Below, piece by piece: positions 3 through 20,730 of a stretch of DNA of 22,244 nt. How positions within the stretch are numbered: position 1 is the first letter of the stretch; the number at the start of each line of letters is the position of its first letter. The stretch comes from a virus: positions 1 to 22,244 of IMG/VR virus record IMGVR_UViG_3300048110_000187; one strand, written 5' to 3'. The notes below the pieces were generated by a model that saw nothing but the letters and a program-made list of their open reading frames with translations, searched no databases and was not told the DNA's origin. A program made the position numbers and the translations under genes.

Positions 3-224
3 GCTATGCTGGCACTCTATAAAGAGATGCAGATAGCAAAGAAATTTGTTATAGATAAACTAGATCACCTAGAACAATTCAGAACATTCGTTCAGACTGA
101 CAACGGTTATAAGGTCACTACCCCTGAAGGATATGTTCTACATCAGAATGGTGATATGATTAAGTTGGTCAATCGAATTGAGTTTGCATACAATAACTTC
201 ACTATACAAAAGCAATGGCGGTAG
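3..224 (+). CDS. C-terminal part of an unidentified phage protein (cut by window edge)
   Basis: The reading frame is open to the left edge, so this is the end of a longer gene; an internal ATG lies at 6. The visible 73 or so residues contain a stretch reading TPEGYVLHQNGD followed by KLVNRIEFAYNNF, which looks like a compact beta-rich C-terminus. From memory this ending resembles a family of uncharacterised marine T4-like phage proteins (possibly DUF6267), but I cannot confirm it. Its stop overlaps the start of the nucleotidyltransferase gene by 10 bases, so the two are probably translated from one message. Confidence 0.6.
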   Translation, partial: AMLALYKEMQIAKKFVIDKLDHLEQFRTFVQTDNGYKVTTPEGYVLHQNGDMIKLVNRIEFAYNNFTIQKQWR

Positions 225-784
225 ATCATATTTACAAGTGTTGTTACTTTACCTTCGGTAGGTTTCAACCACCCACTACAGGTCACGAAGAAAATATCAA
301 AGGAGTTAAAAATGCTGCTGGCAGCTGCGATTGGAGGATTTATACTTCTCGTTCTCACGATAGCAAAGGTAAAAATCCATTACGCCCAGAAAATAAAGTA
401 TCGTGGATGAAAAAAATGTTCAGGTTATATGCCAGTAACATTACAGGTGCTAAGAAAGATGTGATTGAGTGCTTGCAAGAAATTCAAGCAGCTGGATATG
501 ATGATGCTACTCTTGTGGTTGGGTCGGATAGAGTAGATGCTTTCAAATTCATACATAAATATAACGGGAAGGAATATTTCTTCCGTAAACTCGATGTGGT
601 TTCCTCAGGTAACCGTGATGCAGACGGAGATACGTTTGCCATCTCTGGTACTAAAATGCGAAGAGCAGCATTTGCTGGTGACTTTGCAACCTTTCGAGAA
701 GGTATTCCTCGTGCCCTTAGTGACACTGAATGCCAAAAGTTAATGAAAGAAATTGCTGACGCCTTACCATCAAACTTTAAATGA
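215..784 (+). CDS. Cytidylyltransferase/NMNAT-like nucleotidyltransferase
   Basis: The 189-residue protein carries the two signatures of the HxGH nucleotidyltransferase superfamily. Near the N-terminus (about residues 14-24) GRFQPPTTGHE gives the phosphate-binding T/HxGH element. Near residue 142 ISGTKMR matches the ISxTxxR motif. A VVGSDR stretch around residue 95 fits the central strand of the Rossmann-like fold. Members transfer a nucleotidyl group from NTP to a small phosphorylated acceptor, as in NAD or CDP-alcohol synthesis; the substrate here is not evident. It overlaps the genes on both sides (10 bases upstream, ATGA downstream), inside a block of late virion-type genes, so action on a virion or assembly component is possible. 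NAD salvage is the other obvious option. The fold call is firm, the role is not. Confidence 0.8.
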   Translation: MAVDHIYKCCYFTFGRFQPPTTGHEENIKGVKNAAGSCDWRIYTSRSHDSKGKNPLRPENKVSWMKKMFRLYASNITGAKKDVIECLQEIQAAGYDDATLVVGSDRVDAFKFIHKYNGKEYFFRKLDVVSSGNRDADGDTFAISGTKMRRAAFAGDFATFREGIPRALSDTECQKLMKEIADALPSNFK

Positions 785-1353
785 AAAGTTTAAACGAATT
801 TAAAACGCTCACTGAAGCTGTACTTGAGAGCTGTGGTAAAGGCGGCAAAAACGAGGAAAGATATTGTCGCCTTTGCGGTAAGCGTGAGAAGCGATCTGTG
901 TGTGGATACGGTTCAGCAGGATGGGACAAGTATTCCGTAACAGACGCTTCCGACTCAGAGAAAGAAGCTGCTGCAGTTGACGCTGGTATAGTGTCCGAAC
1001 AATCGACTGTAGATGGAGAACCAAAAACAAAATTCGCTGGAAATTATGAAGGACCTTTGTACGCCCCTCACCCCGATCTTGCTGAAAAGCGAAGGGAACT
1101 GGGACTGGATGAAGGAGCTGCCTGGACAAAGAAGTCAGGTAAGAACAAAGAAGGAGGACTCAACGAAAAAGGACGCAAGTCTTACGAGAGAGAAAATCCT
1201 GGATCAGACCTTAAGGCACCATCAAAAAAGGTTGGAAATCCCCGTAGGGCATCCTTCTGTGCTAGAATGAAAGGTATGAGAAAGAGACAGAAATCATCCA
1301 ACAACACGGGTGATGACCGTTTGTCAAAATCTCTTAGAAAGTGGAACTGCTAG
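781..1353 (+). CDS. DUF6321-like phage protein with zinc-ribbon-like N-part and capsid-targeting-like N-terminus
   Basis: The 190-residue protein has three visible parts. Residues 1-12 begin MKSLNEF and end L-T-E, resembling the T4 capsid-targeting peptide cut by the gp21 protease after (L/I)xE. Residues 18-41 hold four cysteines (C18, C29, C32, C41), a possible zinc site. The last 80 residues are basic and carry GGLNEKGRKSYERENPGS, a FCARMKGM stretch and a final KSLRKWNC. That block is widespread in T4-like marine phages and I recall it as DUF6321, whose function is not known to me. Translation is coupled to the preceding gene through ATGA. The positive charge and the N-terminus suggest a DNA-associated protein packed in the head; this is inference. 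Confidence 0.75.
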   Translation: MKSLNEFKTLTEAVLESCGKGGKNEERYCRLCGKREKRSVCGYGSAGWDKYSVTDASDSEKEAAAVDAGIVSEQSTVDGEPKTKFAGNYEGPLYAPHPDLAEKRRELGLDEGAAWTKKSGKNKEGGLNEKGRKSYERENPGSDLKAPSKKVGNPRRASFCARMKGMRKRQKSSNNTGDDRLSKSLRKWNC

Positions 1354-1354
1354 T

Positions 1355-1588
1355 ATGAAATCTTTTCGTCAATTTAGAAAATCTATCACCGAAAGATTTG
1401 AAAAAGACGTTCAGGAGGACTACAGAAAAGACCTTATATTCTCCGAAGGAGATTGGGTTCAGCACATTTCTAATGGTAAGACGGGTAAAGTGATCCGTCG
1501 TGGTCCAAACTATGTTATTGCACTGGGTGAGAACAATAAAATATTTAGATCCTGGGTCAAGGATCTAAGAGAACATTCTGTTTTATAA
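1355..1588 (+). CDS. Small KOW/SH3-like protein with capsid-targeting-like N-terminus
   Basis: The 77-residue protein starts one base after the previous stop. An in-frame start at 1310 would overlap the upstream gene and add an unlikely leader, so 1355 is preferred because it restores MKSFRQF at the N-terminus. Residues 11-13 are I-T-E, a candidate gp21-type cleavage site as in the neighbouring genes. The rest reads FSEGDWVQHISNGKTGKV with RRGPNYVIAL and WVKDLRE. This is the pattern of a small beta-barrel (KOW or SH3-like) in which a G-D-W-V strand is followed by a glycine turn. Such folds bind nucleic acid or protein. Function unknown; a packaged head protein is an inference. Confidence 0.75.
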   Translation: MKSFRQFRKSITERFEKDVQEDYRKDLIFSEGDWVQHISNGKTGKVIRRGPNYVIALGENNKIFRSWVKDLREHSVL

Positions 1589-1591
1589 ATA
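1584..1591 (+). promoter_or_regulatory. T4-type late promoter, TATAAATA
   Basis: An exact TATAAATA, the T4 late -10 element recognised through gp55 and gp33, lies 19 bases before the ATG at 1611 and overlaps the stop of the upstream gene. Its distance to the start matches the other late sites in this block. Confidence 0.75.
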
Positions 1592-1610
1592 ATTAAAATT
1601 ACTTAGTAAG

Positions 1611-2099
1611 ATGAAGCCTTTCAAGAAATTCCTTGAAGAAGCGCTTGAGCACTGGAACGTTCAGCACTTTGAAGAGACATCAGAAATCGAAGTGATGCCT
1701 GAAATCAAGGCAGACTCCGATGATCCTAAAGAAGTAAAACTAAAGAAGAAGAAAGTCAAGAAGGAAAGTGTTGGTAGCGAGTACTCTCTTGAGATTGACG
1801 GCGAGGAGTATGATCTTGTCGAAGTCAAGATGGACGGCGTTGATGACAACGGCAACACCTCTTGCTGGAAAGGTTATAAGAAGAAGGGCACCAAAAAGAA
1901 AGGTGGTAAGGAAGTCAACAACTGTGTCAAAGCAGGATTTGAACCCACTGGTGAAGAGATCAAAGAGAAGAAGCTTGATCCCGTAGGTAAAGAAGACTCT
2001 GACGTTGACAATGATGGCGACGTGGATAAGTCTGACAAGTATTTGAAGAACAGACGTTCTGCAATTGCTAAGGCAATGGGCAAAAAGAAGTCTAAATAA
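1611..2099 (+). CDS. Lysine-rich virion-type protein with EF-hand-like loop and capsid-targeting-like N-terminus
   Basis: The 162-residue protein begins MKPFKKFLEEALEHW; residues 8-10 (L-E-E) fit a gp21-type cleavage site. A charged, low-complexity lysine/glutamate stretch follows (about residues 40-60). A middle motif CWKGYKKKGTKKKGG ends in NNCVK, a cysteine-bracketed basic element I know from several cyanophage virion-type proteins. Near the C-terminus DVDNDGDVDKSD matches a calcium-binding loop of the EF-hand/dockerin kind (D at 1, 3, 5, G at 6, D at 12). The tail is basic. A late promoter lies directly upstream. The features suit an internal or structural head protein; the exact role is unknown. 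Confidence 0.75.
   Translation: MKPFKKFLEEALEHWNVQHFEETSEIEVMPEIKADSDDPKEVKLKKKKVKKESVGSEYSLEIDGEEYDLVEVKMDGVDDNGNTSCWKGYKKKGTKKKGGKEVNNCVKAGFEPTGEEIKEKKLDPVGKEDSDVDNDGDVDKSDKYLKNRRSAIAKAMGKKKSK
2091..2098 (+). promoter_or_regulatory. Possible variant late promoter, TCTAAATA
   Basis: TCTAAATA differs from the T4 late element at one base and lies 24 bases before the ATG at 2123, the same spacing range as the three exact sites at 1584, 2336 and 2966. It overlaps the end of the upstream gene. It may serve the small gene at 2123, but the mismatch is at a conserved position. Confidence 0.35.
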
Positions 2100-3583: not shown

Positions 3584-3943
3584 ATGAGATTTGACTATTT
3601 AAATGATGAAAACTTTCTTCTCTTTGCCTCAAAAAACTACAACAATCCTCAAGGAATAACTTACGAGGACTTCCTTGAGGATTTAAAACGTTTTAAATAT
3701 ATCAAGAGATTGTTTAAACGTTATGAGAAGACAGGTGAACTAAAGGTTCATCTCATTCTTAATCATATTATTGTTATCTACAATATTTTTGGTGAAGCTT
3801 CTACTCTTATGCTATTCCATAAGATAGACAAGTCTAATTGGCAAATACTAAAGTCTTTTCTTAAGTACATAAATCAATTGCCTGCAGAATTAGACGATCC
3901 TTATATTGATACATATACTTTAGAGGAATTGGATCAACTATGA
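3584..3943 (+). CDS. Conserved small T4-like cyanophage protein (DUF7207-like)
   Basis: The 119-residue protein begins MRFDYLNDENFLLFASKNY and has a strongly helical, basic middle with FKYIKRLFKRYEKTGELK and HLILNHIIVIYNIFG. No catalytic motif, membrane span or signal peptide stands out. The N-terminal pattern and length match a protein found in many cyanophages that I recall as DUF7207; this is memory, not a search. It starts 10 bases after the Ig-like gene and overlaps the next by ATGA, so it belongs to the same transcript. Function unknown. Confidence 0.7.
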   Translation: MRFDYLNDENFLLFASKNYNNPQGITYEDFLEDLKRFKYIKRLFKRYEKTGELKVHLILNHIIVIYNIFGEASTLMLFHKIDKSNWQILKSFLKYINQLPAELDDPYIDTYTLEELDQL

Positions 3944-4605
3944 ACGAGGATGCTCCCGTAAATTCAGCTGGTGACGGCAGTAGAGTTGCATTGCCTCCTG
4001 CTCACGTCATTGTTGGAAAACGTTCACGTACTAAATACAAAAAGAATAACGCTCGCTATGATGGGCGTACTAAAGCAGGTCGTAAACTCGTCTCTCGCGT
4101 TTTACTAAATCGAAAAGGAAAAATGTCTGAAGAACTGAAGAAAATTACTGAAGCTTCTAGCGAAACTGAAAGAGCTCAAAAGCAAATTCAGCAAGGCAAG
4201 AAACTTGGTCGTGCTAAGGATCTCCAAAAGAAGAGAGACGAAGCTAAGAGCAAGATGCAATCTAAAACCAAAGAGATGGACACCCTGATGAAGGCACGTC
4301 TTTCTGACTTTAAAAAGAAAGCATCCGATCAAACTAAGAAGTTTAAAAAAGAAGAATTTGTTATGGAAAATGATGTACTAGCAACAGCAACTCAACTTGC
4401 TGCTGGCGAAATTGGAGACACCCAAGGATTTGCTGACGTTCGAGTTGGTGATAATTCTATTAAGATGGATCAGTATTCTGCTAAGCGTGCAGTTGCTGTT
4501 CATCAGGCATTGGATCCCGCCAATCAAATTAGATTTCAGCAAATGCTGAACCAATCTCCTGAAACATATCTTGCAGCTATTGATTTTGCCGTCCGACAAA
4601 ACTAA
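3940..4605 (+). CDS. Basic coiled-coil virion-type protein
   Basis: The 221-residue protein opens with a disordered segment containing NSAGDGSRVALPPAHV, followed by a basic stretch. A long heptad-like region over about residues 65-140 is rich in lysine, glutamate and glutamine, with very few aromatic residues, and should form a coiled coil. The C-terminal 80 residues look like a compact helical domain (AKRAVAVHQALDPANQIRFQ). Translation is coupled to the preceding gene through ATGA. A scaffold or internal-virion role fits the late block, but no family is recognised. Confidence 0.7.
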   Translation: MNEDAPVNSAGDGSRVALPPAHVIVGKRSRTKYKKNNARYDGRTKAGRKLVSRVLLNRKGKMSEELKKITEASSETERAQKQIQQGKKLGRAKDLQKKRDEAKSKMQSKTKEMDTLMKARLSDFKKKASDQTKKFKKEEFVMENDVLATATQLAAGEIGDTQGFADVRVGDNSIKMDQYSAKRAVAVHQALDPANQIRFQQMLNQSPETYLAAIDFAVRQN

Positions 4606-19653: not shown

Positions 19654-20730
19654 ATGTCCACTCTTTCAAGACAACAATCTACTTCCTCGTGGGAATCATT
19701 CTGCGAGTGGGTAACCTCCACCAACAACCGTTTGTATGTTGGTTGGTTTGGTGTGCTGATGATCCCAACTTTGTTGGCAGCTACCATCTGCTTCATCGTT
19801 GCTTTCGTAGCAGCACCTCCCGTTGACATCGACGGTATCCGCGAACCAGTTGCTGGTTCACTTATGTACGGTAACAACATCATCTCTGGTGCTGTTGTCC
19901 CAAGTTCAAACGCAATCGGTCTCCACTTCTACCCCATCTGGGAAGCTGCCTCACTCGATGAGTGGCTTTACAATGGTGGTCCTTTCCAATTGGTAGTCTT
20001 TCACTTCCTGATCGGCATCTATGCCTATATGGGACGTGAGTGGGAACTCTCTTACCGCCTGGGTATGCGCCCCTGGATCTGTGTTGCCTACTCGGCACCA
20101 GTAGCTGCTGCGAGTGCAGTATTCCTCGTCTATCCCTTCGGTCAAGGTAGTTTCTCCGATGCTATGCCTCTTGGTATCTCTGGTACTTTTAACTATATGC
20201 TCGTCTTCCAGGCAGAGCACAATATTCTTATGCACCCGTTCCATATGCTCGGTGTTGCTGGGGTATTCGGTGGATCTCTTTTCTCTGCTATGCACGGAAG
20301 TCTCGTTACTTCCTCACTCGTCCGTGAGACGACTGAAACAGAGTCACAGAACTATGGTTATAAGTTCGGTCAAGAAGAAGAGACGTACAACATCGTTGCT
20401 GCACACGGCTACTTCGGTCGTTTGATCTTCCAATACGCTTCATTCAACAACTCCCGTTCCTTGCACTTCTTCCTTGCTGCTTGGCCTGTTGTTGGCATCT
20501 GGTTCACCGCACTTGGTGTTTCCACGATGGCATTCAACCTGAACGGTTTCAACTTCAACCAGTCCATCATCGATGGTCAAGGTCGTGTGTTGAACACCTG
20601 GGCAGATGTGCTGAACCGTGCAGGTCTTGGTATGGAAGTTATGCACGAGCGCAATGCTCACAACTTCCCATTGGATCTTGCTGCTGCTGAGTCAACTCCT
20701 GTTGCTCTTACCGCACCTACCGTAGGCTGA
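19654..20730 (+). CDS. psbA: Photosystem II reaction-centre protein D1
   Basis: The 358-residue protein is nearly complete to the host form. [12 protein letters not shown], five membrane helices, the redox tyrosine region [14 protein letters not shown] (Y160, D169), and the iron and P680 ligands around HPFHMLG are all present. Residue numbering runs one below the standard. MGREWELS places Glu at position 130, the form linked in cyanobacteria with high-light D1. The C-terminus [10 protein letters not shown] has the usual cleavage point after Ala. The start at 19654 gives MSTLSRQQS; an in-frame start at 19630 would add eight unusual residues. It replaces photodamaged host D1 during infection. 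Confidence 0.98.

Follow-up and report, generated by a model that had tools for sequence, protein, structure and literature searches.

Three consecutive genes of a T4-like cyanomyovirus, here denoted A, B and C, most likely encode internal head proteins that carry a T4-type capsid targeting sequence (CTS), are cut by the prohead protease gp21 and are probably injected into the host, a reading to which we assign a probability of roughly 0.78. The genes are located in a 22,244-base phage fragment (hereafter the window, i.e., the entire stretch of DNA analyzed), and the records related to it are Synechococcus and Prochlorococcus phages. Packaging in the head by means of a T4-type CTS had been proposed in a first-pass annotation of the same DNA; it is now well supported, if indirectly, by T4 controls, by the co-occurrence of the N-terminal label with virion detection and by virion-detected relatives of all three bodies.

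The N-terminal label of A, B and C

The window starts with the C-terminal part of a T4-GC71 family protein (6..224, plus strand), a relative of which, Sf157, contains a ligase-like KWDGAP motif. It is followed by a cytidylyltransferase/NMNAT-like nucleotidyltransferase (215..784, plus strand; PF01467, HIGH-type motif GRFQPPTTGH) that lacks the label and has no match in a PDB sequence search. Genes A (781..1353, 190 aa), B (1355..1588, 77 aa) and C (1611..2099, 162 aa) are next on the same strand, and downstream of them are genes for a PHROG-402 protein (2123-2323), a protein without family (2373), a head-type Ig-like protein (phrog_613; 2995), DUF7207 (3584), phrog_4187 (3940) and a coiled-coil protein (4626), after which come gene 61 primase, nrdA and nrdB. 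A T4-type late-promoter-like motif, TATAAATA, is located ~20 nt 5' of gene C (1584..1591, plus strand); this core occurs four times in the window compared to 0.78 expected, and three of the four copies are directly 5' of genes, those at 1611, 2373 and 2995. The fragment does not include the region of the head genes; its closest near-complete relative, G013, encodes gp21 and gp22, and gp23 of G013 has LNE/A (here and below, the slash marks the cut) at the homologous, expected site.

The N-termini are MKSLNEFKTLTEA (A), MKSFRQFRKSITER (B) and MKPFKKFLEEALE (C). As the first-pass annotation had described, the open reading frames that start at 781, 1355 and 1611 all have Phe at position 7 and an [LI]xE triplet within residues 8-13, the putative gp21 site: A reads MKSLNEF-KT-LTE/A (triplet at 10-12), B MKSFRQF-RKS-ITE/R (11-13) and C MKPFKKF-LEE/A (8-10), with positions 4 and 7 hydrophobic or aromatic in each protein. 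In T4, packaging of IPIII requires no more than its first ten residues; targeting depends mostly on residues 4 and 7 and processing on residues 8 and 10, and cleavage by gp21 follows [L/I]xE, the propeptides being 10-19 residues long (PMC9026906). The T4 internal proteins and A, B and C are alike in the MK-x-[aromatic/Leu]-x-x-F start, in the [L/I]xE triplet within residues 8-19 and in having small bodies that are not homologous to each other. The same pattern search applied to T4 as a control retrieved three proteins that we take, from their sequences, to be IPI, IPII and IPIII, along with a 54-aa protein encoded beside gene 61; IPII and IPIII read MKTYQEF-IAE/A, precisely the T4 start that the annotation had cited, and IPI reads MKTFKEF...ITE/A with the site at 17-19. 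The systems also differ in several respects: the bodies of A, B and C show no homology to the T4 internal proteins, the sites of A and B are 2-3 residues further in than that of IPIII (that of IPI is further still), the P1' residue of B is Arg rather than the Ala of the T4 proteins, and for A, B and C cleavage and ejection are predictions.

A scan of all ATG, GTG and TTG starts on both strands of the window recovered A, B and C plus one spurious antisense match at 20558, and no other real gene start with the label. The chance rate was estimated by column-shuffling ~8,400 ORF N-termini from related phages: MK.[hydrophobic]..F is expected 0.0018 times per ORF, and the same start combined with [LI]xE at residues 8-13 (which by itself has a background frequency of 3.8%) 6.6e-5 times per ORF; three consecutive labelled genes would arise by chance with a probability of ~1e-11, for which the position correction is rough. 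The wider search for the N-terminal pattern that the annotation had proposed, run on the same N-termini, detected the label 23 times outside the module families discussed below, compared to 0.56 expected (maximum of 3 in 200 shuffles), an excess that marks the pattern as genuine for these phages.

A second measure was a scoring matrix trained on nucleotidyltransferase-KOW fusions only, with 11,759 N-termini as the background; A and C are independent of the training family, and B is akin to it via the barrel module, its N-terminus, that of a separate protein, being outside the training set. B outscored the entire background, C had p=0.002 and A p=0.010, with the T4 controls at 0.002 (IPI) and 0.008 (IPIII) on the same matrix, so that the labels of B and C appear strong and that of A moderate. 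A chance origin of the labels was rejected on the basis of the column-shuffle and the independently trained matrix. Recent duplication of one 5' end was rejected as well: over the 21 nt at their 5' ends the three genes differ at 7-8 positions, and the residues common to the labels are encoded by different codons, indicating that the labels were not copied from one another recently.

The notion that all three N-termini are T4-like holds in that the pattern is present in each, but with unequal security, the label of A being the weakest of the three and degenerate and that of C being confined to the window clade. The label of A is not kept in relatives, which have MKYLNDIREF (G013) and MKSLHDI (L016), with F7 and the site kept in neither. 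In B, F7, I11 and E13 are invariant across the window clade and residues 9, 10 and 12 vary; in the wider split clade the start is MK[DN]FKKL, with Leu at 7, and in 38 of the 39 distinct lone B proteins the start is either the label itself or its degenerate Leu7 variant. The label of C is found in four of the five window-clade forms, the fifth being MKSFKQI, and is absent outside this clade, most C homologues starting with MDKQRPVN.. or MERQKP..

Protein bodies as shuffled modules

The C-terminal 70 residues of A, which follow a CxxC region and extend to the SLRKWNC end, match the full Pfam profile of DUF6321 (PF19846, positions 1-72; E 3e-22, 79.6 bits vs the gathering cut-off of 28.5), and the protein is basic (pI 9.4), in agreement with its initial description as a DUF6321-like basic protein. 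The AlphaFold2 model of A has a pTM of 0.27 and accordingly is too poor for a fold search. The label occurs in some members of the DUF6321 family only, with clear cases such as MKTYTEFIAEA, MKSFSEFLTER and MKTFKEFQEGA. We consider it possible, if doubtful, that the label is real in B and C only, MKSLNEF of A being a chance or decayed start and A reaching the virion, if at all, by means of DUF6321. Such an explanation would fit the background rank of A and the absence of F7 and the site in its relatives, as well as the fact that the virion-detected DUF6321 proteins S-CREM2 gp137 and S-SCSM1 ORF29 are unlabelled, but it has to contend with the clear labels on many other DUF6321 proteins and with the closeness of A to T4 IPIII on the matrix (3.07 vs 3.99). 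The preferred reading remains that all three proteins bear a CTS.

B is predicted to form a KOW/SH3-like barrel (residues ~31-73; pLDDT ~90 in the barrel), and the best PDB matches in Foldseek are Spt5 KOW domains (E 3e-3, TM 0.58). The predicted fold is compatible with the annotation of B as a KOW-like barrel; in Pfam, B has no KOW match and the MSSS SH3 domain is below the cut-off. C consists of the module CWKGYKKKGTKKKGGKEVNNCVK and the EF-hand-like module LDPVGKEDSDVDNDGDVDKSDKYLKNRRSAIAKAMGK; the loop DVDNDGDVDKSD, of the DxDxDGxxxxx[D/E] type, is EF-hand/dockerin-like by eye and has no Pfam EF-hand match, so that of the original description, lysine-rich and EF-hand-like, the first part stands (with an overall near neutral pI of 6.2) and the second is a visual assignment.

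The three bodies had been regarded as unrelated, and indeed their folds are different, but they are parts of one recombining repertoire that includes the nucleotidyltransferase, given that in other phages the modules are fused to each other (N-B, Cmid-A in S-SCSM1 ORF29 and Syn9, and B-Cmid-Cef in L044). In particular, B is the C-terminal module of a fused nucleotidyltransferase, and in the window it is a separate gene with its own label. In a survey of 80 primase-centred IMG/VR loci and the Syn9 stretch, 72 labelled ORFs were found on the coding strand vs one on the other strand, and most of these 72 are nucleotidyltransferases fused to B's module. The label is located at the called start in 57 of the 64 fusions with a complete N-terminus (43 with the canonical form and 14 with a form shorter by one residue), whereas in the remaining 7 a label-like stretch lies slightly further in; [LIV]xE comes right after F7 in all 26 distinct canonical fusions. 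Lone nucleotidyltransferases without B's module are present in the window lineage and in a wider clade (S-PM2, S-CAM4, Sf-CH3), and none of their 43 distinct copies carries the label.

Virion proteomes and proposed loading of the head

The fused nucleotidyltransferase (T4-GC190) has been detected in the virions of four cyanophages, namely S-SM1 (MKKFSAFLNEA; PMC3037559), S-SCSM1 (MKSFLQFLKEA; PMC9602691), S-CREM2 (MKNFSSFLTEA; PMC10665884) and S-SZBM1 (MRFRQFIIEA; PMC9146016), and B's module is accordingly present in the particles of all four. These cytidylyltransferase/NMNAT proteins (S-SM1_190, S-SCSM1 ORF91, S-CREM2 gp154 and S-SZBM1_140) carry the label as A, B and C do and occupy the same genomic place, upstream of gene 61/nrdA/nrdB; the nucleotidyltransferase of the window differs from them in being encoded on its own and unlabelled. 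The S-PM2 nucleotidyltransferase is unlabelled and undetected in the virion, whereas S-SM1_190 is labelled and detected; we do not accept this contrast as proof of the role of the label but regard it as no more than suggestive, since seven ordinary structural proteins likewise went undetected in the S-PM2 study.

For S-CREM2, the 219 annotated starts were compared with the published virion list (PMC10665884). Under a lax pattern with a site, which is partly post hoc in that it was shaped after gp14, gp15 and gp136 had been seen, 6 of the 7 labelled CDS are virion-detected vs 46 of the 212 others (Fisher p=8e-4), and with recognised structural genes removed the lax pattern yields p=3e-5. Under the strict pattern, 3 of 4 labelled proteins are virion-detected (p=0.042), or 4 of 5 when GTG starts are allowed (p=0.012). 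The six labelled and virion-detected proteins are gp6 (SAM lyase), gp13, gp14 (kinase), gp15, gp136 and gp154. Among these, gp13-gp15 (a small protein, an APH/ChoK-like kinase and another small protein) are adjacent, like A, B and C in the window, and constitute a parallel backed by mass spectrometry in which the bodies are entirely different.

Modules of C are found in virion-detected S-CREM2 gp160, S-SZBM1_139 and S-SCSM1 ORF92, and the DUF6321 module of A in gp137 and ORF29 as noted above. The proposition that the label is required for virion presence was rejected: S-SCSM1 ORF92 and ORF29 and S-CREM2 gp137 and gp160 are virion-detected without it, implying that the A and C modules do not depend on it to become virion-associated. 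The part of the S-CREM1 GenBank record that was examined contains no flags for detected proteins. Taken together, the labelled relatives and the same modules in purified virions point to phages of this kind as probable carriers of several preformed proteins, a head cargo that may enter the host with the DNA.

By inference from T4, late in infection the N-terminal helical segment MKx[F/L]xxF would dock on the gp22-type scaffold core of the prohead, and the prohead protease gp21 would cut after LTE12 (A), ITE13 (B) and LEE10 (C). The mature bodies of ~178, 64 and 152 residues, respectively, would be retained in the head beside the packaged DNA and probably ejected into the host along with it. 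Other cyanophage cargo, namely the nucleotidyltransferase, SAM lyase and kinase, would be loaded by the same label, labels and bodies being recombined as modules. As for the action of the cargo, our guess is that B might make a KOW-type contact with nucleic acid or RNA polymerase.

An alternative is that the label does target the prohead core but that the proteins are components of the assembly core or scaffold, like T4 gp67 and gp68, which are degraded or lost and not delivered. In T4, gp21 likewise cleaves the core proteins, which for the most part exit the head (PMC9026906), and members of one small labelled family, S-SCSM1 ORF30 and S-SZBM1_191, are absent from the virion proteomes of S-SCSM1 and S-SZBM1; nevertheless, we deem this alternative improbable, considering that homologous modules are present in mature virions and that enzymatic labelled cargo (SAM lyase, kinase, nucleotidyltransferase) makes little sense as scaffold. 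Still harder to sustain is the view that these are ordinary amphipathic starts that favour translation or folding, with no role in the head, and that relatives are detected in virions because abundant proteins are carried over: possible carry-over is acknowledged by the authors of the S-SCSM1 (PMC9602691) and S-CREM2 (PMC10665884) proteomes, but the pattern is rare in general (the 23 cases outside the module families vs 0.56 expected), fits the experimentally mapped T4 determinants, accompanies virion-detected non-structural proteins in S-CREM2 and marks the same protein in four phages from separate studies.

Beyond the reading of A, B and C as internal head proteins, it seems on balance plausible that in T4-like cyanophages a portable CTS is a general loading code for recombining cargo modules (NAD/nucleotide enzyme, SAM lyase, kinase, KOW barrel, DUF6321) that are freed by cleavage inside the head and reach the host together with the DNA. 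In that case, the label would predict the injected proteins of marine phages directly from sequence, a rule for cargo prediction across very abundant marine viruses, and would account for the metabolic and anti-defence enzymes in cyanophage virions. Cyanophage proteomes repeatedly list nucleotidyltransferases, kinases and SAM hydrolase in particles, the choice between cargo and carry-over being left undecided by the authors; a T4-type label, borne by these enzymes as well as by A, B and C, offers a simple reason for their presence in the virion. The CTS has been suggested as a possible general route for T4-like phages in the review by Black, and we found no earlier report of the CTS label in cyanophages in the openly searchable literature. 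T4 provides the precedent for this kind of system; what appears to be new is that these proteins use it and that it matches the cyanophage virion proteomes.

Additional observations on labelled and gp23-like proteins

Small proteins whose genes are located just 5' of gene 61 reproduce the mature N-terminal arm of the major capsid protein, gp23, of their own phage. Thus, Syn9 gp190 (L118 14414), TGYTGGDAATGPTAGYDPV, matches gp23, TGYTGGDTVTGPVAGFDPV, with an E value of 5e-10, S-CREM2 gp160 (L002 28342-29235) matches its own gp23 arm with an E value of 1e-8, and S-SCSM1 ORF97 (L003 43121) is also among these gp23-arm-like proteins. The 54-aa protein of T4 beside gene 61 (L102 18969, minus strand; label MKTFKEFIKE) resembles the arm of T4 gp23 (50% over 32 aa, alone not significant), and the start of the window ORF 3940-4605, MNEDAPVNSAGDG, resembles G013 gp23, LNEAAPINSVGADG (64% over 14 aa, E 0.7, not significant).

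The S-CREM2 genes gp12-gp15 (L008 7704-13331, minus strand) are consecutive and all virion-detected; gp13, gp14 and gp15 are labelled, and gp12, annotated as a Cas9-like nuclease, has a label-like RFASFMAEA ~18 residues in. The label MKTFQEFIAEA of a protein encoded at L052 7774-8238 is almost identical to that of T4; its body, which starts YTLHHGTSPEAKK, is possibly ADP-ribosyltransferase-like by eye, with no Pfam match, and its match to the PHROG 'internal head protein' is through the label only. Virion-detected S-SCSM1 ORF93 (L003 41626-41835) contains a label-like RTFKEFLEYIE at the C-terminus, a hint that the segment might also function at that end.

A conserved small family, phrog_1742 (~105 aa; L004 44215-44535, L370 37311-37628, L258 4356-4691), has a clear label in the start MKSFKQFxSESVNISGDFNG; its gene in S-SCSM1 is directly 3' of a DUF6321 gene, near the terminase genes, and the family is not among the reported virion proteins. 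Finally, S-CREM2 gp14 (L008 10579-12846, minus strand) and nucleotidyltransferases such as that at L083 3215 have in common a second segment after the label, AKxxGLxxxGxxxWxDxxGK, and its presence on different enzymes suggests that label and linker may move as one cassette.
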